This document shows, piece after piece, positions 4,966 to 64,000 of a stretch of DNA of 64,000 bases. Position 1 is the stretch's first letter. The number at the start of each line of letters is the position of its first letter. The DNA lies in NCBI GenBank assembly GCA_017569305.1, contig CP069418.1, positions 1,736,001 to 1,800,000 of the forward strand, written 5' to 3'. Source of the stretch: Clostridiales bacterium FE2011 (lineage in GTDB: Bacteria; Bacillota; Clostridia; Christensenellales; Aristaeellaceae). A program made the translations under genes and the position numbers. The notes beneath the pieces were generated by a model. The model did no database searches. It saw only the letters and a list, made by a program, of their open reading frames with translations, and was not told the origin of the DNA.

Positions 4966-6060
4966 ATGCGATCTAAAGGTATGGAAAAACTACTGCGGGT
5001 ACTGCTGGTGCTGCTGGGCATCGGCGTGGGACTTGCCGCGGCACAGCTCGGCCTGGCCCTCTTCCGGCTGAGCCATCAGAATGCGGATATCCCCGCCTGG
5101 GTTCCCGTGGCCTCCTATACGGGCATGGGCGTGCTGGGCGGCCTGATTCTCCTGCTGCTGTGTCCCCGGATTATCCGCCGGGTGAGCACCCTTTCCATGG
5201 AGATGCAGAAGGAATTTGACAAGATGCCCGCCAACCAGCTGCTGAGCGCCATTATCGGCCTGATCCTCGGCCTGATTGTGGCAGCGCTCCTGCGGCAGAT
5301 GCTGTCCTTCTTCGGAAACGGCGTGGCCGGCGCGGCCCTGACCGCCATCCTGTACCTGACCCTCGGCGCCCTGGGCTACAACATGGGGAAACGGCGCAGC
5401 CGGGAATTCATCACCATGATCACCCGCCTGTCCGGCGCCCGGGAAAAGAGCAAAATCCGGAAGCACGGCTATGCTTCCCGGAAGTACGTGGATACCAGCG
5501 CAATCATTGACGGCCGGATCCTGGAAATTGCAAAAACCGGTTTTATAGAAGGGGAGTTTATCATTCCCCAGTTTGTGGTGGATGAGATTCAGCACGTAGC
5601 CGATTCCTCGGATGATACCCGTCGGGAACGGGGCAAGCGGGGACTGGAAATCCTGCGGGAGATGCGGGACAGCCTGAAACAGCTTGTGATCGATCCGGCG
5701 GATATTGAGGAACTGCAGGATGTGGACGTGAAGCTGCTCCGGCAGGCCCGGGACTGCGGCGGAACGGTCATCACCGTAGACTATAACCTGCAGAAGGCCG
5801 CCGCAGTCAGCGGCGTAAAGAGCCTGAACGTGAATGAGCTGGCGGATGCCCTTCGTCCCGCGGTTGTCCAGGGAATGGAGCTCCGGGTTCACATTTCCCG
5901 GGAAGGCAAGGAAGCCGGCCAGGGCGTTGCCTATCTGGAAGACGGCACCATGATTGTCATTGAAAACGGCAAAGCCCTCATCGGGGAAGACGCAGACATC
6001 GTCGTTACCAGCGTCCTCCAGACCTCCGCCGGCCGTATGATCTTCGCCCGTCTGAAATAA
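4966..6060 (+). CDS. Membrane-anchored PIN and TRAM domain protein (YacL-like)
   Basis: A 364-residue protein similar in architecture to Bacillus YacL. The N-terminal third has about four hydrophobic segments (residues about 7-27, 43-64, 88-110, 115-135). A PIN nuclease domain follows with acidic residues placed as expected (VDTSAIIDGRI at about 177, VVDEIQ at about 202, ITVDYN near 267). A C-terminal TRAM-like RNA-binding segment covers about 300-364. Members are thought to be membrane-tethered RNases, but their substrates are not well defined. The ribosome site GTGAGGTAA precedes the ATG. Position after radA matches the usual Firmicutes order except that disA is missing. Confidence 0.9.
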   Translation: MRSKGMEKLLRVLLVLLGIGVGLAAAQLGLALFRLSHQNADIPAWVPVASYTGMGVLGGLILLLLCPRIIRRVSTLSMEMQKEFDKMPANQLLSAIIGLILGLIVAALLRQMLSFFGNGVAGAALTAILYLTLGALGYNMGKRRSREFITMITRLSGAREKSKIRKHGYASRKYVDTSAIIDGRILEIAKTGFIEGEFIIPQFVVDEIQHVADSSDDTRRERGKRGLEILREMRDSLKQLVIDPADIEELQDVDVKLLRQARDCGGTVITVDYNLQKAAAVSGVKSLNVNELADALRPAVVQGMELRVHISREGKEAGQGVAYLEDGTMIVIENGKALIGEDADIVVTSVLQTSAGRMIFARLK

Positions 6061-6077
6061 TCTTCTGTAAAAACTCA

Positions 6078-6105
6078 GGGAGTGTGCATCAGCACACTCC
6101 CTTTT
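6078..6105 (+). terminator. Terminator after the PIN-TRAM gene
   Basis: A 10-bp perfect stem (GGGAGTGTGC / GCACACTCCC) with loop ATCA, then TTTTA. Confidence 0.9.
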
Positions 6106-46472: not shown

Positions 46473-51200
<4,728 letters not shown>

Positions 51201-51433
51201 TTCATGATTGGTCCAGAGACCAATTAAGGTAACAGAAAAACTAACAGGTCAGATAATTCCTGAATATTGTAGCTGTGCAGTTGTCAGGATGCGTAAAGCG
51301 TCCGTGGGCCCCGGAAGAGGAAGAAAAGGACGATGGAAGGGGCCAAACCGTTCCGATAAAGGGACGATGAAATCGCTGGTAAGGAAGACCTAAGGGACAG
51401 AATGAAAAGCGATTTCCTAAATAGCTCACCATT

Positions 51434-51549
51434 TCCGGTGGCAATGACGAAGAGGTTCCACCTGTTCCCATACCGAACACAGAAGTTAAGCTCTTCAGTG
51501 CCGATGGTACTTGACTGGTAACGGTCCGGGAGAGTAGGTCGCCGCCGGA
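51434..51549 (+). rRNA. rrf: 5S ribosomal RNA
   Basis: About 116 nt. Terminal helix TCCGGTGGC / GCCGCCGGA, with the conserved CCCATACCGAACACAGAAGTTAAG core. Confidence 0.95.
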
Positions 51550-51557
51550 TTCCATAT

Positions 51558-51632
<75 letters not shown>

Positions 51633-55379: not shown

Positions 55380-55393
55380 ACACACGCATAGGG

Positions 55394-55425
55394 ACCGCTG
55401 TCCGAATTCGGACAGCGGTTTTTTT
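55394..55425 (+). terminator. Terminator after the HD-domain gene
   Basis: An 11-bp perfect stem ACCGCTGTCCG / CGGACAGCGGT with loop AATT, then seven T. Confidence 0.93.
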
Positions 55426-55529
55426 GTCACCTGCTGTTATAGTCACAGGAATCCTGACTTTGCTTTTTCTACAGTTTTGTTGATGAATCGCTTTCCAATT
55501 ATGCAGTTAATCTGACCAGATTTGCAGAT

Positions 55530-55560
55530 TTGGTTATATTGTGTGTGTGTGTGTGTTATA
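55530..55560 (+). promoter_or_regulatory. Possible promoter with (TG)7 in the spacer
   Basis: TTGGTT (55530-55535) and TATACT (55555-55560) are 19 bp apart. Most of the spacer is a seven-unit TG repeat (55540-55553). Loss of one unit would give the optimal 17 bp. The -35 is weak, so this is a candidate only. The rest of the 55380-56287 gap is AT-rich with no intact gene found. Confidence 0.35.
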
Positions 55561-55650
55561 CTTTGTGCAATGTTGGCGGCAAAATTATATCCGCTTGACC
55601 CTGGAATCTTGGGAATTGGTTATGAGCTTAAATAGAAAGAGGTGAAAAAG

Positions 55651-55815
55651 ATGGTTAATAAAGTTTTTTAGAGGATATTTAGCACTCGGAATGATTTTTC
55701 ATTTCTTACAGTCGTTGCTCACATTTTGTTTACTGATACTCCTGATATTGTTGCTACATCTCTTATGATATATAAATCCCGGATGAACGCTTTTTATTGT
55801 ATGCAACAGCCCTGA
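55651..55815 (+). pseudogene. Small ORF interrupted by an early TAG
   Basis: ATG at 55651 has AGAGGTG eight bases upstream, but codon 7 is TAG (55669-55671). The same frame then stays open to TGA at 55813, 54 codons in all. No lanthipeptide-like leader is visible and I do not recognise the product. It may be a broken small gene at the edge of the lanthipeptide island. Confidence 0.4.
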
Positions 55816-56287
55816 GTACTGTTGTCTGAACTTTTTGTCAGATAGGACTTTTCTTTTTGTCATTTTATGTTTGTATTTCTGATTTCATTTTGTGTGGTGG
55901 GCTAACTCTTGGCAGCAATTATTACATGCGCAATCTGATGTCTCCATGCTGACTGGGGGATGTTCTGCTTCTTTGGAATGGTTTGAGTGCTAATAACGGA
56001 CTTGACGAACATATATAGGCAGCGGGTACAGATTCCATTTATACGAAACATGCTTTCATAATGAAGTTGCAGTTTTATATCATCTGCTTTTTTGAAACCG
56101 GAGTTTTGCATTCATGTCGCAGAAGTCAGCAGGCGATTGAACTCTTCCCAAATAGCTACGGGTTAAAACTGATATTATGGCAGAGAGGGATTGTGCATTT
56201 GGTACCGTGCTCCTTTCCGATTTGCTGTGATATAGATTTGTACGCTTAAAGTACACATATTAAATTATTAAAGGAGGAAAAGACACA

Positions 56288-56536
56288 ATGAACAAAAAGA
56301 GGAGCTTTGTAGTTGGAGATCTCATGCAGGAAATTCAGGAACAGGATCTTATGGTGCCTGTTGGTGGCGCAGTGGACGGTGGTGGCAATAGAGTACAGTC
56401 CGTCTTAACTGTCATTTCTGCAATTACGGCAATTACAGGCCTTACCGCATGGTCAAATGATAAGGCGACCAGAAAGTTCAAGTGCGGAGAAGTTCTTACG
56501 TTGTCTGCTGAGTGTAATGGCGGCACAGCGTGCTAA
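56288..56536 (+). CDS. Class II lanthipeptide precursor
   Basis: An 82-residue precursor with AAAGGAGG 12 bases upstream. Residues 1-27 form a leader with the charged, amphipathic pattern of class II leaders (FVVGDLMQEIQEQDL) and a Gly-Gly cleavage site (VPVGG, 26-27). The 55-residue core contains eleven Ser/Thr and three Cys (66, 76, 82). Its C-terminal TLSAEC (71-76) matches the TxS/TxEC ring motif of lacticin-481/mersacidin-type, lipid-II-binding lantibiotics. The N-terminal half of the core has a hydrophobic Thr/Ile-rich stretch (38-54) and GGG near its start. Up to three lanthionine rings are possible. The long core is unusual; most related cores are 20-40 residues. Confidence 0.88.
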   Translation: MNKKRSFVVGDLMQEIQEQDLMVPVGGAVDGGGNRVQSVLTVISAITAITGLTAWSNDKATRKFKCGEVLTLSAECNGGTAC

Positions 56537-56545
56537 TTAGGTAAT

Positions 56546-56589
56546 TTGCGGCGGTGGGCATTGCGGATAGGCAATTCTCATCGCCGCAA
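56546..56589 (+). terminator. Hairpin between the precursor and lanM
   Basis: An 11-bp stem with one wobble (TTGCGGCGGTG 56546-56556 / CATCGCCGCAA 56579-56589), with no T-run. It probably lowers read-through or stabilises the precursor message, giving more precursor than enzyme, as is common in lanthipeptide operons. Confidence 0.65.
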
Positions 56590-56666
56590 TATCTACCGAG
56601 TGTAATAACGGGGGAGTCTGTTGATCAAAACTGATCTCCTTGTACTGGAATGGTGAGGAGAACGCA

Positions 56667-56690
56667 ATGATTGGATTAACAAGCATTTAG
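56667..56690 (+). other. Seven-codon mini-ORF before lanM
   Basis: GAGGAGAAC then ATG (MIGLTSI, stop TAG). It could be a leader peptide or a decayed precursor gene. The rest of the 56537-56927 gap holds a 14-bp palindrome and otherwise no feature I can name. Confidence 0.3.
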
Positions 56691-56692
56691 CA

Positions 56693-56706
56693 GGTGTTTA
56701 AACACC
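56693..56706. promoter_or_regulatory. 14-bp perfect palindrome
   Basis: GGTGTTTAAACACC lies right after the mini-ORF and about 220 bp before lanM. It could be an operator. Confidence 0.3.
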
Positions 56707-56927
56707 CCTTAGTATATAGATTCAAGGTATCGCATATTTGTAGTTGAAAAGGTGAAACCAACACAGATTATTATATGCTTGAATTTCGAAAATAATCTAC
56801 GACGCGCCTTACCGTGCGTCATAGTATATGTTCTTTCAAGCTCATTTTACAAGAAAGGCCGCCGCTTGTCTGCATATTTTTCATTCTGTTTGTACCAAGC
56901 GTAAAGCGGCTGGGATGGTTGATTGTT

Positions 56928-59900
56928 ATGAAACTTCTGGTTCCTCGGCAGAGTCAGCAGACGGACGCTGGCTTCGATTTTCAGGACAGTCTATCTTTCT
57001 GGGATGGTCTCTTCCCAGAGATAAAGGAGCGGACAGCCCTACTAAACAGTTTGAAGTCCCTTGGGGAACAGCTCGATGAGTCTGCTCTGCGGCGTTTATT
57101 CGATAGTCAGAAGCAGATTTCGTTTGATTTCTTTGAACAGGAATTCAATGACACATATGTTGCTAGTATCCAGCAGGGGCTTGAAGCGGTGAACGAAGAT
57201 ATTTTGGGGTGGATGAACTATTTTAAACCGCTCCTCGTCTCGTGTATGGAGCCATTGTTCAACCGAATCCATCATTGTTCGGTTGTTTTGGAGCCAAGAG
57301 CTCTGTTTTGTCGTTCGGTGAGTGCACTTGCCAGAATTCTCTTCCAGATGGCATTTCGCGTACTTATTGCTGAAACCAATGCGAGCCGGGATGAAGGTCT
57401 GCTGAAGGGTGCTGATACCGTTGCGAGAGCAACATATTACAAAGAGGTGCTCTTGCAGGATGTATCATATTTGAAGGCTGTCTATTCCAGATACCAGGTC
57501 TTGACTGATATGATGCTGAAGAAGACCGGGCTGATCTGTGAATATATTGAATCCATTATAACAGATTACGAAACGAATCATGAAGCCATCGGGCGGGAAC
57601 TGAACGGCGGATCTACCTTCGGGAAACTTGTCCATATCAGGCTCGGAGAAGGTGACACCCACAACCAGGGGAAAAGCGTTGCAATCATTGAGTTCGAACA
57701 AGGGATCCTGGTCTATAAGCCAAGGACTCTTCAACTCGAACAGCGCTACAATACTTTCATTGAGCACCTGAATGCAGCGCACATCCCAGGGTTTTTAGAC
57801 ATCAAAACAATCCGTCTGAAAAACACCGGAGAGACTGGCTGGTGCGAGTTTGTAAGGCAGAAACCCTGCAAAGAAGAAGCCGAAGTCAGGGATTATTACA
57901 CGCGGATTGGTGAACTGCTTGCGATCTTCTATCTCTTCAGCGCCTCTGACTTCCATGCGGAGAATATTATCGCATGCGGTGCATATCCGCTGGTCATTGA
58001 CATGGAGACACTTTTCTCTGCTGATCTGTTTGATCAGAAAACAATAGAGAAGTCTGTGTTCAGTTATATTGGTAGCCTCCTGACCTATTCTGTTAAGGCC
58101 TCTGCCATCCTGCCGACAATGATCCGAAATCGAAAGACGAATAAGCAGGTAGATCTTTCTGGCTTGTCCATGGACGAGGAACAAGAATCCCCCTACAAGT
58201 CCTTTTGTATCATGGATGCAGACAAGGATACGATTCATATTGTTGCAAAAAACCTTGCTATAGGTGGACATAACAACAGTGTAAAATTGCATAATCGGAG
58301 TATGGAATCTCAAAAATATCTCGGGGAGATGCTCCGCGGCTTCGAAATCACCTACGAGTATTTTGTAAATAATCGGGAGTCTGTATTGGCGTACATTGAG
58401 GAGCACTTCAGCGGGCTGATGTTCCGCGTCTTGCTCAGAGGTACAGTGACATACGGCCAGATGCTTTCAACGATGTATCATCCCGACCTTGTGCAGTCTT
58501 TTTTGGACAGGGAAATCTACCTGAACCGGTTGTTTTTGAACGCTGATGAGAAGCATATCGCTCTGGTTCTGGCCGAAATTGAGGATATGAAGAGAGACGA
58601 TGTTCCTATGTTCATGGCGTCCACAGACGAGCGGAGCCTCTACACCTGTGCAGGCCAGGCACTGGAAGGTATTGTACAAAATTCAGCGCTGGAGATGCTC
58701 CGAAGTAAACTTGAACGAATGGGTGCGGCAGATCTTTGCTTTCAGAGGCGCGTGATTATCTACAGCTATGCAGACCTGTACAGAAATGATGTTTATATTA
58801 CAGGCTATCGCTATCATGAAGCCGAAGAAGCGCAAGAGCCGGACGGAGAGTCACAGATCCATGTGCTGGTGGAACAGGTCGCGAAATATTGCGATGCAAA
58901 CAGTATTAGTCTTACGGTGAACGGTCAGACCGAGCGTTCATGGATCGGATATCTTGAGGTGGAGGATCAGTTTCGAACGATTACTCCCATCGGGATTAAT
59001 CTTTACGATGGCAATGCTGGGATGGTGCTTTTCTATGCCGCGCTATACAAGTATACGCAGAAGCGGTGCTATTTGGAAACTATGCGGGAAGTGCTCCGAC
59101 CGATTGAACAGTATTTTGAGAAAAATAGCATCGGCAAGGAAACACAAAATGGTTTATACAATGGATGTAGCGGCGCGGTCTATCTCTACGCTGTCATATC
59201 GGATTTGCTCCATGAGGAATCTTACAGAGCGCATGCTGACAGATTACTGCGGGAGATGGCGAGTAGTAGAGTGCTCTCTCAGAAGAACGATGTGATGATA
59301 GGAAATGCGGGAGCGATTCTTGTTGCTGCCCGCTTGTCGGAGCCCGGAGACGCGATCATTGATCCGTATCTGCATACACTTGCGCAGAAGATCATAGAAG
59401 CGGCAGATGTGTATCCTACAGGTTGTTTTATAGGAAAGGAAGGTTACACTGGCTATGCGCACGGCACAGCAGGTATTTCCCATGCCTTGTACAAGGTTTA
59501 CAAGCGGACAGGGGATGAGCACATCCTTTTGGCTGTGGAAAAAATGCTTGCTTATGAGCGTGGACAATACGTTACAGAAGCAGGTAATTTCCGCAGGAGC
59601 CTTACTGACAAACGCTGTGATTGCAAGTGGTGTCATGGAATGTCGGGCATTCTGCTCAACCGCCTTTCGCTCAAGGAGGATGGATATTCAGATAGCCTCC
59701 TCGACAGTGAGATTGAGATTGGCATTCGGACGCTGAAGCAAGTGGGCTTTGGCGCGGATTACTGCCTTTGCCATGGCGACATCGGCAATCTCATGATCTT
59801 GCAACAAGCGGCAGTGCTTTTGCAGGATGGAGCTCTACAGCAACAAGTCAGACGGAACACAGAGCGTCTCGCCACACAATTGATAGAACGGCTGAAAGGC

Positions 59901-60020
59901 AGTCCGGATTTTCTGGAAAATGCTGGCTTTGGTCTGATGACAGGGCTTGCCGGAATCGGATACGGCTTAATTGCATTAGAGGACAGAAACGCTCGAATCC
60001 CCAATATTCTTGCAGTTTAG
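56928..60020 (+). CDS. lanM: Class II lanthipeptide synthetase LanM
   Basis: About 1030 residues, the usual LanM size. The enzyme phosphorylates and dehydrates Ser/Thr of the precursor, then adds Cys thiols to form lanthionine rings. The N-terminal dehydratase (DUF4135, about 100-650) shows a kinase-like core: Lys264 in VYKPRT, D341-F-H343-AEN and D358-M-E360. The C-terminal LanC-like cyclase (about 700-1025) has GYAHGTAGISHAL and the zinc ligands Cys902 (WCHG), Cys948 and His949 (CHGD). The ATG at 56928 is chosen; a GTG at 56814 would add 38 residues unlike LanM, but neither has a strong ribosome site. Confidence 0.95.
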   Translation: MKLLVPRQSQQTDAGFDFQDSLSFWDGLFPEIKERTALLNSLKSLGEQLDESALRRLFDSQKQISFDFFEQEFNDTYVASIQQGLEAVNEDILGWMNYFKPLLVSCMEPLFNRIHHCSVVLEPRALFCRSVSALARILFQMAFRVLIAETNASRDEGLLKGADTVARATYYKEVLLQDVSYLKAVYSRYQVLTDMMLKKTGLICEYIESIITDYETNHEAIGRELNGGSTFGKLVHIRLGEGDTHNQGKSVAIIEFEQGILVYKPRTLQLEQRYNTFIEHLNAAHIPGFLDIKTIRLKNTGETGWCEFVRQKPCKEEAEVRDYYTRIGELLAIFYLFSASDFHAENIIACGAYPLVIDMETLFSADLFDQKTIEKSVFSYIGSLLTYSVKASAILPTMIRNRKTNKQVDLSGLSMDEEQESPYKSFCIMDADKDTIHIVAKNLAIGGHNNSVKLHNRSMESQKYLGEMLRGFEITYEYFVNNRESVLAYIEEHFSGLMFRVLLRGTVTYGQMLSTMYHPDLVQSFLDREIYLNRLFLNADEKHIALVLAEIEDMKRDDVPMFMASTDERSLYTCAGQALEGIVQNSALEMLRSKLERMGAADLCFQRRVIIYSYADLYRNDVYITGYRYHEAEEAQEPDGESQIHVLVEQVAKYCDANSISLTVNGQTERSWIGYLEVEDQFRTITPIGINLYDGNAGMVLFYAALYKYTQKRCYLETMREVLRPIEQYFEKNSIGKETQNGLYNGCSGAVYLYAVISDLLHEESYRAHADRLLREMASSRVLSQKNDVMIGNAGAILVAARLSEPGDAIIDPYLHTLAQKIIEAADVYPTGCFIGKEGYTGYAHGTAGISHALYKVYKRTGDEHILLAVEKMLAYERGQYVTEAGNFRRSLTDKRCDCKWCHGMSGILLNRLSLKEDGYSDSLLDSEIEIGIRTLKQVGFGADYCLCHGDIGNLMILQQAAVLLQDGALQQQVRRNTERLATQLIERLKGSPDFLENAGFGLMTGLAGIGYGLIALEDRNARIPNILAV

Positions 60021-60180
60021 TAAGGCGAAACACAGAAATGAACATCCCGATCATGAGGGTAATACGTGTTACCATCATCTATACATACTGAATAAAAACA
60101 ATCATAGCATCAAGGAAAGCCGTCATGATCGCAGATTTGAGTTGTACGGGGTTGTCTTGCGTTCACAGAGAGGAGGAGGA

Positions 60181-60942
60181 TTGAGTACGACATACAAAAT
60201 TGTGACGATAAATGGGAGCCCAAGAGGGGCAAAATCAAGCACTGGAGCCTTTCTCAAAGCTGTTGTCAGCGGGCTTCGGAAGAGGATCGACATCGAAACG
60301 TATGAGCTTGATTTAAGCAAGTACAAGGTGAGCTTCTGCAGAGGTTGCTCGAACTGCTTTGAAACTGGGAAATGCCCGCTGGATCTGCAGGACGATATGC
60401 CCGAACTCAAAAAGATGATTCTGATGGCAGACGTTTTGCTGATCGGCACGCCCATATACGCAGGGAATATCACGGCGCAGATGAAACTTTTGCTGGATAG
60501 AATGTCTTACTGGATGCATCTGATGTGCCTCTGTGGAAAGCCGACGGCCCTTCTCACATCCTCTTGTGGGAATGGAGCAAACTTCGTGAAGACCTATCTG
60601 TCTTCGGCGGTGAAGTTTATGGGGGGACGAGAGGTCTCCTTCCAGAATTATCTTGTCTTCACAGAGAATGATGTGCAGGAGGTGGAGAATGTACAGAGAA
60701 CCGAAGAAATGGTCGCAGACATTATTGGAGCCCTAAATGATCCGACGCACATTGGTGAGCGTGAGCGGAAGGATCTTGATTATATCTTTCATTCCATGCA
60801 GAAAAACATGAAGCTTTATGAGGAAGAGCCCAACTTTGAATACCGGTTCTGGAAACACAATGGATTCTTTGAATTTGAGAGTTACATGGATGTAATTATG
60901 AATTCTGAACGAATTATTTCGGACTTTGGAGGCACACTATAA
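60181..60942 (+). CDS. Flavodoxin-like NAD(P)H-dependent oxidoreductase
   Basis: A 253-residue flavodoxin-fold protein. An FMN phosphate-binding loop is present (INGSPRGAKSST, residues about 10-21). A Cys cluster (CRGCSNCFETGKC, about 50-62) is typical of NADPH-dependent FMN reductase/iron-sulfur flavoprotein families. The motif LLIGTPIYAGNITAQMK follows. The start is TTG with AGGAGGAGGA directly upstream. Being inside the lanthipeptide operon and overlapping the next ABC gene, it may tailor the peptide (for example reduce dehydro residues) or serve redox needs. It does not resemble the known LanJ dehydrogenases, so this role is inference. Confidence 0.82.
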   Translation: MSTTYKIVTINGSPRGAKSSTGAFLKAVVSGLRKRIDIETYELDLSKYKVSFCRGCSNCFETGKCPLDLQDDMPELKKMILMADVLLIGTPIYAGNITAQMKLLLDRMSYWMHLMCLCGKPTALLTSSCGNGANFVKTYLSSAVKFMGGREVSFQNYLVFTENDVQEVENVQRTEEMVADIIGALNDPTHIGERERKDLDYIFHSMQKNMKLYEEEPNFEYRFWKHNGFFEFESYMDVIMNSERIISDFGGTL

Positions 60943-61847
60943 TGCATAATGGGATTTGCGTGACTGACTTGTATAAAAAATATGGAAACAACACGGTTCT
61001 GAATAACATCAATATGACCCTGATGCCGGGGGAAATTGTCGGTCTTGTAGGGACAAACGGCGCAGGCAAGAGTACCTTGCTGTCTATTCTCTGCGGATTG
61101 AAAAGGAACTATACGGGAAACGTGGAAATCGATGGCGTAAATATTCGTTCAATGCGAAGAAAGAAGAATATCGGCTGTTTGATAGAGAATCCCGGTCTGT
61201 ATCCGGCACTTACAGGCATGGAGAATATCAAGTATTTTACCTCATTCACGGATACAGTCACCACAGATGAGATAAAAGCATTGGTCGGGGCATTGGAGCT
61301 GGGGGATTTTATTAACAAGAAGGTGAAAAAATACTCTCTTGGTATGAAGCAACGGCTCGGAATCGCTATTGCACTGCTTGGGAGTCCCAAGTACCTGCTG
61401 CTCGACGAGCCCATGCGTGGCGTAGACCCTGAAGTCATACCTGCGTTAAGGAAATATCTGGTCTCCCGCGCGCGCGAGGCAGGCACAGGCATCATGATTT
61501 CCAGCCATATCTTAGGGGAAATCGAGTCCATGTGCGACAGGGTGATAGTTCTGCAGGCGGGGCGGATCATAGAATCCATTGATCTGAAGGAAGACGCGGG
61601 CAGCGCAGAGGAAGATTATATCATCTCGTCGAGTGAGACTGTGCAGATAGAAGCATTCCTGCGTGAGAAGGGCTATTCGGTGCGGCGTACAGAGAATAAG
61701 TTGATGGTTAGAACCAGGGATACCGAAGTGAACGAGCTGATCAAATTGCTTGTAGCAAACGGTCTGAACCTGACGGGAATCGCACCCTACAGAGAGAACC
61801 TGGAAGAACGTTTCATCAAGGCAATCAAACAGGAGGAAGATCAGTGA
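60942..61847 (+). CDS. ABC transporter ATP-binding protein (LanF-like immunity)
   Basis: A 301-residue ATPase. Walker A GTNGAGKST (about 36-44), signature YSLGMKQRLGIAIAL, Walker B YLLLDEPMRGVDP and H-loop ISSHILGEIE are intact. It fits the LanF/BcrA-type ATPase that works with two small permeases to remove lantibiotics from the membrane. Its ATG overlaps the flavoprotein stop by one base, and it overlaps the next gene by 4 bp, so translation is coupled. Confidence 0.92.
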   Translation: MHNGICVTDLYKKYGNNTVLNNINMTLMPGEIVGLVGTNGAGKSTLLSILCGLKRNYTGNVEIDGVNIRSMRRKKNIGCLIENPGLYPALTGMENIKYFTSFTDTVTTDEIKALVGALELGDFINKKVKKYSLGMKQRLGIAIALLGSPKYLLLDEPMRGVDPEVIPALRKYLVSRAREAGTGIMISSHILGEIESMCDRVIVLQAGRIIESIDLKEDAGSAEEDYIISSSETVQIEAFLREKGYSVRRTENKLMVRTRDTEVNELIKLLVANGLNLTGIAPYRENLEERFIKAIKQEEDQ

Positions 61848-62569
61848 AAACAGTTTTATATGATCTGAAGCGCAACTATAAAGCAATAGGAATCTTCTGT
61901 CTGTTTTCATTTGTGGTGATTGCCCAGTTTTGGCGGAGAGATTTGAGATCCTATTCAGTTGCTGTCTTGAACTATTACTTTTTCTGGACTTCTTTTATTG
62001 GCATGATGGTCGTGATAACCAACTTGCATATGGAGGATTTCCGTAGCGGTGCCATCAAGGAACTGTATGTGTTCATAGAGAGCGGATGGAAGCTTATTGC
62101 CAGACGGCTGCTCAGTGTGATTTGTGTGGCCGGCATATTCTATTTGCCTGCACTTATCAACCAGACGATCGGTATTCAGAAGCTGAAAAAAGTCGATCCG
62201 AGCCTGGTCGAGGGAACTTATGCGTTGAATTTGCTGGTGATCTATATGGGCGCAGCAGTTTTCCTGTCTGCTTATGTGATGTTGATCGCATACAGCGTAC
62301 GTTCGTATAAAAAGGCGTACTTTATTGCGGTGCTGCCCCCGCTTGTCCTTAACTATCTACTGCCCTTTATTATCACACAGGGACAACTGGACGAGAACGG
62401 ACCGCTGGGTATGGTGAGCAAGATACTGAAAAAAACCCCGAACGGGATTATCACGGTATGGTCTCAAACTCAGATGGTTTCTTGGGAGGATGGGGTTTTG
62501 CTGCTTGTCTATATTGCAGGTTTGTATGCAGTTGCTTATGTCTTTTATCGGAATCGAGACTGTATATAG
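61844..62569 (+). CDS. ABC transporter permease (LanE/LanG-like)
   Basis: A 241-residue membrane protein with about six hydrophobic segments, GTG start. It lacks conserved sequence motifs, as is usual for this group. Position after a LanF-like ATPase and size match LanE/LanG immunity permeases (ABC-2 type). The region from about 57 to 85 (HMEDFRSGAIKELY) resembles the cytoplasmic coupling loop of this family. Confidence 0.82.
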   Translation: MKTVLYDLKRNYKAIGIFCLFSFVVIAQFWRRDLRSYSVAVLNYYFFWTSFIGMMVVITNLHMEDFRSGAIKELYVFIESGWKLIARRLLSVICVAGIFYLPALINQTIGIQKLKKVDPSLVEGTYALNLLVIYMGAAVFLSAYVMLIAYSVRSYKKAYFIAVLPPLVLNYLLPFIITQGQLDENGPLGMVSKILKKTPNGIITVWSQTQMVSWEDGVLLLVYIAGLYAVAYVFYRNRDCI

Positions 62570-62617
62570 CGAAGTTGTGGCGATGTAATTCGGATTAATG
62601 GAGTGATTTGGAGTAAA

Positions 62618-63325
62618 ATGTATCAGTATATTAAAAATGAATGTAACAGAATAATTAAATGGAAGTCGTGGCTACTGGTTGCGGCGATCTGTCTGTTCGT
62701 AATGGTATTAGTACGTGCTTGTGATGCCGGAGCAGCAGTCTTCGTTTATTCGATCCTGGCAAATCTTGGATATGTTTTCGTGATCGGCATCTGTGTATGT
62801 GTGGCGACCGATGACTTTGAGAATGGCACATATATTCAGGCTTTTACCGGGAAATACAGTGTGCCGCACATTATCGGCGCAAAACTCATTGCAGCGGCAG
62901 TCGAGGCACTGGTCATTGCAGCGTTGAGCTGCATCCTGTCGTTCATAGCGACATACGGGCAGATAGAAGGCGTACAGCTGGAAGAGATGTTACGTTTGTT
63001 TGGTATGACAATGCTCACCTACTTGGTCGGAGCGATGCTTTTGGCATCTGTTGCTGTTTTGATGGGTAGTTTTATAAAGAATCAGGGTATTTGCGTAGTT
63101 TTGATGTTTTCCCTCTTTTTAGGGGTGTTCGCAGAAATTATTGGCTTGGTAAAATCTCACTTCAATATCAACACGGTTGCAGGTTATCTGCTTACTCAGT
63201 TTGCGCTTTTGCCGGAAATGATGCTCAATGGAGCGGCTTCTTTTCAACAGATAGGCTTCTGTATGGGAGCTGCCATGCTTAATTATGTAATTATATGCTG
63301 CACAAGAAGATGGTGGTTAGGATAA
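62618..63325 (+). CDS. ABC transporter permease (second LanE/LanG-like)
   Basis: A 235-residue membrane protein with about six hydrophobic segments and DDFENGTYIQAFTGK, similar in type to the coupling loop of the previous permease. Together they would form the LanEG heterodimer. The ATG at 62618 (with TTGGAG upstream) is preferred to a GTG at 62603. Confidence 0.82.
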   Translation: MYQYIKNECNRIIKWKSWLLVAAICLFVMVLVRACDAGAAVFVYSILANLGYVFVIGICVCVATDDFENGTYIQAFTGKYSVPHIIGAKLIAAAVEALVIAALSCILSFIATYGQIEGVQLEEMLRLFGMTMLTYLVGAMLLASVAVLMGSFIKNQGICVVLMFSLFLGVFAEIIGLVKSHFNINTVAGYLLTQFALLPEMMLNGAASFQQIGFCMGAAMLNYVIICCTRRWWLG

Positions 63326-63332
63326 GGTTGCT

Positions 63333-64000
63333 ATGAGGAAACGAGTAACATTTATCGAACAAATCAGCACTACTGAGTGCGGTATCACCTGTGTTGCAAT
63401 GCTTCTGAGGTATTACAAAAGCTATGTGAGCTTGCAACAGCTCCGGGATTTGCTGGACACAGGAAGAGACGGCACTTCAATTGGTCAACTGGTGGCGCTG
63501 TGTAAGAAGCTGAATCTGCTTGCTAAGCCGGAAAAGATTGATTTTTCTCAGATTGAGAGAAATCAGGCACCTTTTATTGCTCTTTGCTACAACAGTCATT
63601 TTCTTGTCGTAGAGAAGATCACCAAGAAATATGTATATATTGTAGACCCAGCTTCCGGAGCAGAGTATGTTTCTCACGATGAATTCAAAGAAATATACTC
63701 AGGATATATCATATGTATTGCACCGGACAGAAATTTTGTTCCGCAAAAAAGAGACATCCATCTGTTTTCCGAATACATTCAGGTATTTAAGGAAAAGAAG
63801 GGATTATTCGCAGCGATATTTGTCATATCGATTGTTATATACGCGTTTTCATTGGCGGTTCCTATCTTGATGAAATATGCGATTGACAGCATCAATATAA
63901 AAACAGAATCTGTGGAACAACCCTTAATCATGCTGATCATATTTGTCGGACTTGCCTCATTGCTTGGGTATATTCAAAGCAATTGCTTAATCAGCTACAG
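63333..64000 (+). CDS. lanT: LanT-type peptidase-containing ABC transporter (partial)
   Basis: The 5' 222 codons are in the window; the gene runs off the right edge. An N-terminal C39 peptidase domain (1-135) has the oxyanion Gln10, catalytic Cys16 (TTECGITCVAML), His89 (NSHFLVVEK) and Asp105 (VDPASG), the residues that cut after Gly-Gly leaders. Two membrane segments of an exporter domain follow (about 152-175 and 195-218). It removes the precursor leader and exports the peptide. The ATP-binding domain is outside the window. Confidence 0.92.
   Translation, partial: MRKRVTFIEQISTTECGITCVAMLLRYYKSYVSLQQLRDLLDTGRDGTSIGQLVALCKKLNLLAKPEKIDFSQIERNQAPFIALCYNSHFLVVEKITKKYVYIVDPASGAEYVSHDEFKEIYSGYIICIAPDRNFVPQKRDIHLFSEYIQVFKEKKGLFAAIFVISIVIYAFSLAVPILMKYAIDSINIKTESVEQPLIMLIIFVGLASLLGYIQSNCLISY

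Follow-up and report, generated by a model that had tools for sequence, protein, structure and literature searches.

What does the group of genes at the end of a 64,000-nucleotide stretch of the Clostridiales bacterium FE2011 genome produce, and how did it come to lie there? The stretch (hereafter the window; G000:C1:1736001-1800000) belongs to a 3.56 Mb genome assembled as a single contig. Our overall reading, which we hold with a probability of roughly 0.8, is that it contains a class II lanthipeptide island which is complete and was apparently acquired recently, and in which a LanJB-type reductase would introduce D-residues into a lantibiotic. An initial annotation of positions 55380-64000 had listed a precursor, a LanM, a flavoprotein, a LanF-like ATPase, two permeases and a C39-peptidase LanT, and all of these are present, as seen from open reading frames (ORFs) and family matches. 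That annotation stressed the order of the genes, gave the flavoprotein no role and made no comment on the precursor. The flavoprotein and the precursor are more informative, and the combination of a LanJB-type enzyme bearing an iron-sulfur motif with a precursor of period-3 Ser/Thr residues is more interesting than the gene order.

Core genes of the island

Judged by its sequence, the locus is a class II lanthipeptide cluster with all core genes intact. The genes from 56288 onward all lie on the plus strand, and the features are as follows (window coordinates):

55394..55426, plus strand: intrinsic terminator behind the preceding host gene (HD-domain-like protein) and left edge of the island; 26-nt palindrome followed by a T run
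56270..56278, plus strand: ribosome-binding site of lanA (AAAGGAGGA), read off the sequence
56288..56536, plus strand: lanA, precursor of 82 amino acids (aa); supported by NF000539, residue positions and relatives P0002-P0004
56538..56595, plus strand: lanA-lanM intercistronic hairpin, from RNA folding
56928..60020, plus strand: lanM, class II lanthionine synthetase, 1030 aa; DUF4135, LANC_like, TIGR03897 and motifs
60181..60942, plus strand: putative lanJB-type reductase dependent on flavin mononucleotide (FMN), about 253 aa; PF03358, with a probable TTG start
60942..61847, plus strand: lanF-like ATP-binding cassette (ABC) ATPase of a putative self-protection transporter; best NCBIfam match TIGR03740
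61844..62569, plus strand: permease 1, LanE/G-like by position, 241 aa; ORF with a homologue in locus L056
62603..63325, plus strand: permease 2, LanE/G-like by position, 240 aa; ORF with a homologue in L056
63333..64000, plus strand: lanT, C39-peptidase ABC exporter (Peptidase_C39), the first 222 codons being inside the window
63327..63368, plus strand: 42-nt repeat copy around the lanT start, with a second copy at 65797-65838, 2470 bp downstream

LanM scores 743.9 bits against TIGR03897 (cut-off 304) and joins a DUF4135 dehydratase domain to a LANC_like cyclase domain, and is thus bifunctional; the motifs DFHAEN, WCHG and LCHG are present, and the start chosen, giving a length of 1030 aa, is consistent with P0005. 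The initial annotation, in which lanT was cut by the window edge, had called for extension past 64 kb and allowed for a decayed gene there. In the extended sequence lanT is not decayed: it is an intact frame of 712 aa (window coordinates 63333-65471; L003), which carries the C39 Cys, His and Asp as well as Walker and LSGGQ motifs; the part inside the window matches Peptidase_C39 with 121.5 bits. The same genome holds a second, distant C39-domain ABC gene (G000:C1:3272629-3273228, L002; E 3.2e-15), a 729-aa open frame with 23% identity to the first 222 residues of LanT. Upstream of lanA, no convincing gene was seen by eye at 55430-56270 among ORFs of at least 40 aa, on which no family search was run.

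The flavoprotein

The protein encoded after lanM belongs to the FMN_red family (PF03358), and its structural model has a mean predicted local distance difference test score of 89.5. The nearest solved structure is SP1951 of Streptococcus pneumoniae (PDB 2oys and 1sqs; sequence E 1.3e-28, TM-score 0.76-0.77 on the query), a protein whose entry title names no function and which presumably lies in a lanthipeptide locus; flavin reductases and azoreductases are the next fold matches. Four cysteines (C53, C56, C59 and C65) form a CX2CX2CX5C motif, which 28 of the 30 rows of an alignment share, its own included, and which P0024 and L073 lack; two of the rows, P0020 and L056, are one protein. The arrangement CX2CX2CX5-7C is the compact motif of iron-sulfur flavoproteins, which are redox-active (PMC3164229). 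In those passages of the LanJB literature that were examined, which fall short of a full check, the motif is not mentioned for LanJB.

FMN reductases that make D-residues (LanJB) are among the commonest class II tailoring enzymes (PMC7268733), and LanJB enzymes, described as flavin-dependent or as members of the FMN-reductase family, yield D-Ala and D-2-aminobutyrate (D-Abu) (PMC7268733, PMC10373908, PMC11519912). Reductases of this family are encoded in the carnolysin (CrnJ) and bicereucin (BsjJB) lanthipeptide clusters, as in the island, CrnJ and BsjJB being the two LanJB enzymes that have been tested (PMC7268733, PMC10373908, PMC11519912, PMC5808125). Bicereucin, by the title of its paper, is a two-component system, unlike the single LanA considered here; carnolysin is two-component as well.

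The lactocin S cluster (las; Latilactobacillus sakei plasmid pL13-1, L077) resembles the island in being class II and in having a homologous flavodoxin-family reductase, which we take to be LasJ, directly after lanM (E 4e-39 against the family profile described below). It differs from the island in several ways: the four-Cys motif is missing from its reductase and a TxSAEC tail from the LasA core, the cluster includes a gene for an S8/S53 peptidase, and no C39 domain is annotated in its ABC transporter gene. Lactocin S itself contains three D-Ala residues encoded as Ser (PMC5808125). Because relatives of the flavoprotein adjoin dehydratase genes, because its lactocin S homologue goes with a product containing D-Ala, and because of the published descriptions of LanJB, we infer that it is a LanJB-type reductase, which would convert dehydrated Ser and Thr to D-Ala and D-Abu.

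Related reductase loci

A profile of eight relatives, used in one scan of one-genome-per-species contigs with one peptide pattern, gave 39 stretches, and 21 loci were confirmed. A lanthipeptide Ser/Thr dehydratase domain (Pfam) is encoded in 18 of the 21, of LanM type in 16 and of LanB type in two; class I loci (LanB plus LanC) with a LanJB-type reductase are found in Enterococcus ratti (L071 4500-12819) and Tissierella pigra (L068 2873-10093). As for the other three, in L074 the contig starts within the reductase gene, in L067 a contig end truncates the synthetase and leaves its LanC half, and L056 has the LanC half of a LanM only. Across the 18 loci with LanM or part of it, the gap between reductase and LanM is below 100 bp in 13, about 0.5 kb in L072 and 1.3-5.9 kb in L063, L066, L067 and L069, the last being on the other strand.

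The association depends on the strength of the match. In a class-level sample of 391 genomes, 13 matched the reductase profile, our genome counted; LanM lay within 1.5 kb in all six of the others scoring at least 139 bits and in none of the six scoring 96-119 bits. The label of a merely generic FMN reductase was thus rejected for members above about 139 bits and accepted below 120. An order-level sample of 396 genomes gave matches only in our genome, in G035 and in G120, the last among the weak ones. Among plasmids 27 records matched, and in each of the three regions inspected (lactocin S, P. sordellii and P. megaterium) LanM lies beside the reductase.

These data bear on the possibility that the island makes an ordinary lanthipeptide of the mersacidin/plantaricin C type, the flavoprotein supplying reduced flavin or keeping the precursor thiols reduced, with no reduction of dehydroalanine (Dha) or dehydrobutyrine (Dhb). 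FMN_red is a broad family, the nearest structures are SP1951 and then flavin reductases and azoreductases, and the Cys motif resembles that of redox-active iron-sulfur flavoproteins (PMC3164229), all of which such a role would accommodate; the close relatives, however, have lanthipeptide dehydratases of class I as well as class II for neighbours, and the homologue in the lactocin S cluster is in keeping with a D-Ala product. We therefore regard a mere supporting role as unlikely.

Some loci may make reduction their main modification. Precursor-like ORFs without Cys in their last 45 residues were found in L057 (six of seven), L062 (one of one) and L063 (one of one), two Cys-free ORFs of L060 having been set aside as doubtful. 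A LanC-like domain is absent in L062 and weak in L057 (51.7 bits) and L063 (55.7 bits), and a weak or missing cyclase would leave reduction rather than ring closure at these three loci. In Anoxynatronum buryatiense (L057 4826-9884), LanM and LanJB are accompanied by seven precursor-like ORFs with long double-Gly leaders, all ending in Trp, which makes the locus a candidate for linear D-amino-acid peptides. At L062 7859-10768, a 708-aa LanM-like protein with a dehydratase domain is encoded immediately upstream of LanJB, with a Cys-free precursor-like ORF upstream; this is possibly a dehydratase-plus-reductase pair acting without ring closure.

The precursor

LanA matches the plantaricin C family NF000539 with 37.8 bits (cut-off 29) and consists of a double-Gly leader (VGG) and a 55-aa core. 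The core contains 11 Ser/Thr (positions 38, 41, 44, 47, 50, 53, 56, 61, 71, 73 and 80) and three Cys (66, 76 and 82), all of the latter inside the last 17 residues, and a Cys-free hydrophobic stretch (38-56) precedes a mersacidin-like TLSAEC tail. The seven Ser/Thr of this stretch stand at an exact spacing of three, a run reached in 3 of 20,000 shuffles of the core, a figure that is optimistic, as the pattern had already caught the eye when the test was made. As no Cys lies nearby, these residues, if dehydrated, would be natural LanJB substrates. With the plantaricin C/mersacidin type the precursor shares the family match above cut-off and a probable TLSAEC ring with its Glu; in mersacidin this Glu (E17) drives lipid II binding (PMC8183687). 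The island differs from that type in the long period-3 segment before the ring and in that family scans of the island genes found no LanD.

A search requiring shared 5-residue words returned three relatives of LanA (P0002-P0004) among 5.8 billion proteins. Positions 44, 47, 50, 53 and 56 are Ser or Thr in all four sequences, with Thr-to-Ser swaps in P0004, and the TxSAEC tail is likewise common to all four; positions 38 and 41 are not conserved. The period-3 run of each relative is five, which was equalled in 24, 120 and 310 of 20,000 shuffles. Two further, looser relatives are found in L064, where Hathewaya massiliensis encodes two precursors (5323-6095) laid out like LanA, a hydrophobic Ser/Thr segment being followed by KCGGV..T..ECLC or NCGGV..T..ECLC, beside LanM, LanJB and a LanT-like transporter. 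These precursors differ from LanA in having an extra Cys in their N-terminal part, and only about 235 bp separate lanJB from the transporter gene in L064, which therefore lacks the lanF-permease block there.

A general rule of period-3 Ser/Thr in LanJB precursors is not supported: none of six other cores has a period-3 run longer than three, and three of the six have spacing-4 runs of 4, 4 and 6. On a Priestia megaterium plasmid, a precursor (L079 7589-7774) adjoining LanJB and LanM has a core with six Ser/Thr at an exact spacing of four.

Could LanA be one half of a two-component lantibiotic, with the partner peptide encoded elsewhere in the genome? TLSAEC-type tails are typical of alpha peptides, precursors of both alpha and beta type occur in the related LanJB loci L066 and L067, and the genome has its second C39-domain ABC gene. 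Against this stand the single lanA-like ORF and single lanM of the island, the one match in a LanM search of the whole genome, and the fact that LanA alone already unites the hydrophobic segment and the tail; nor was a second precursor seen by eye among ORFs of at least 40 aa at 55430-56288 or 56537-56928. With the precursor search confined to the island, a missing partner appears improbable to us.

Acquisition and distribution

The island extends over 10,533 bp (55380-65912) between two convergent host genes, one for the HD-domain-like protein and one for a rubrerythrin (PF02915), the latter following lanT on the opposite strand at about 65916-66476; beyond it, host DNA resumes at 54-65% GC per kilobase. 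The initial annotation had described the block as starting after a strong terminator and as richer in AT than its surroundings, and both points are borne out. The terminator is a perfect 26-nt palindrome with a T run (fold -27.8 kcal/mol, z -5.45), which a simple terminator scan does not list, probably owing to its form. The island has 43.7% GC against a window mean of 53.8%, and GC at third codon positions is 0.42-0.58 in its seven genes as opposed to 0.63-0.77 in six flanking genes.

In four sister species (G001, G008, G005 and G002; loci L028, L029, L031 and L033) the HD-domain-like and rubrerythrin genes are adjacent and the island is absent, only a short hairpin-like stretch separating the two genes. 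The search for the HD-like gene covered 45 genomes of the genus and found it in 32; 30 of its loci were compared, two of them from island carriers. None of the 28 loci of non-carriers has an island match; 24 of the 28 lack the junction of the four species within the 1.5 kb compared, and in G012 the rubrerythrin gene is on the opposite side of the HD-like gene.

Another species, G035, carries the island at the same site. Over 55367-66134 the two copies differ by two substitutions, one missing 3-base unit and two inserted bases, while the neighbouring 500-base bins show 39 and 30 mismatched columns. The wider flanks (40-87 kb) are patchy, at 80.8-99.8% per 500-base bin with the top values in rRNA genes, and homologous recombination between two close species is therefore as possible as two separate arrivals. 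The empty site in four sisters, together with a nearly unchanged copy in the same place in G035, makes the island look recently mobile, which lends good support to the acquisition proposed initially. When 200 relatives were searched for LanM, nine genomes matched, ours counted: LanM of G035 is 100% identical, and the other genomes match at 24-43% with partial coverage. The initial annotation had also considered that identical clusters might already be characterised in relatives; such a cluster does exist, in G035, and no published characterisation of it was found in the open-access literature. Among the seven island genes, family scans revealed no mobile-element gene, lanT being covered in full by motif only and smaller ORFs not being scanned.

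That the genes are intact and the cluster nevertheless a silent or relic one seems to us improbable: family scans found no regulator among the seven island genes, as would suit such a state, but both carriers have an unbroken lanM frame, the island is nearly identical between them, lanA has a good ribosome-binding site and a stable hairpin behind it, and 147 database contigs code for the precursor, as two member sequences.

Proposed pathway and product

In the pathway that we favour, LanM would dehydrate Ser and Thr of LanA and close thioether rings onto the three C-terminal Cys. The likely rings are T61-C66 and a mersacidin-like T71-C76, with C82 probably closed from S73 or T80. The LanJB-type reductase, probably assisted by an iron-sulfur cluster, would hydrogenate Dha and Dhb from S38 to S56 to D-Ala and D-Abu. 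LanT would then cleave after the double Gly and export the peptide, and the LanF-like ATPase with the two permeases would protect the producer. The product would be expected to act on Gram-positive competitors, its TLSAEC ring binding lipid II and its hydrophobic N-terminal segment being placed in the membrane. The best reading is thus of a single lantibiotic with D-residues in the N-terminal segment and a lipid II-binding tail.

A bolder version is tentative and, on present evidence, doubtful: the product might merge the two halves of a two-component lantibiotic in one molecule, with up to seven D-Ala/D-Abu (S38 to S56) in a regular D-L-L repeat, a mersacidin-like tail and an iron-sulfur LanJB. 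A search of the open-access literature directed at a D-L-L repeat of this kind yielded no paper, which is weak evidence of absence. If the favoured reading is right, a compact, recently moving cluster would yield a single peptide in which a membrane segment with D-amino acids is united with the binding of lipid II, and the period-3 Ser/Thr pattern would make both the mass of the product and the positions of its D-residues predictable.

Several observations speak against parts of the favoured pathway. No Isf structure is among the best 50 of 1594 fold matches of the flavoprotein. The Cys motif is absent from the lactocin S reductase and from SP1951, and its first Cys is missing in the P. megaterium homologue, so that the iron-sulfur part does not extend to the whole reductase family. 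Sequence kinship to LanJB was assessed through the lactocin S homologue, and the start codon of the flavoprotein is TTG. The immunity role proposed for the ATPase and permeases is assigned from their position and the TIGR03740 match. The island may be a mosaic, since lanT (39.5% GC) is richer in AT than its remaining genes. Among the related loci, L058 and L076 also have no LanC-like match and are not linked to Cys-free precursors, the candidate precursor of L076 having two Cys.

Putative self-protection genes, gene order and RNA elements

The LanF-like ATPase has its best match in TIGR03740 (lantibiotic protection ABC ATPase) with 195.8 bits, below the cut-off of 309.75, and neither permease has a family match at E up to 0.01. 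A start/stop overlap (TAATG) was confirmed between flavoprotein and lanF, which the initial annotation had read as translational coupling and which may act so; lanF and permease 1 overlap as well (GTGA). The gene order initially called unusual, lanM-flavoprotein-lanF-two permeases-lanT, stands as described for this island. It is not the novelty of the locus, as the same order recurs in L056, where lanM is a partial open frame with the LanC half only and another gene lies upstream.

A hairpin follows lanA (fold of 56537-56660, z -4.80, with none of 200 shuffles equally stable) and has no T run downstream; it is possibly an attenuator of read-through or a stabiliser of the lanA message. Upstream of lanA, the search for an RNA element gave nothing but a ylbH match, below threshold and close to the terminator, and the candidate was rejected. 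The 42-nt repeat is direct and without mismatch (L003 8327-8368 and 10797-10838), its downstream copy falling within the island close to the right edge, and both copies are present in G035 too; it may be the remnant of a second gene copy that was lost, or a mark left by the insertion event. About 4 kb upstream of the island, the window also holds a complete rRNA operon (16S, 23S and 5S) with a tRNA at 46473-51629.

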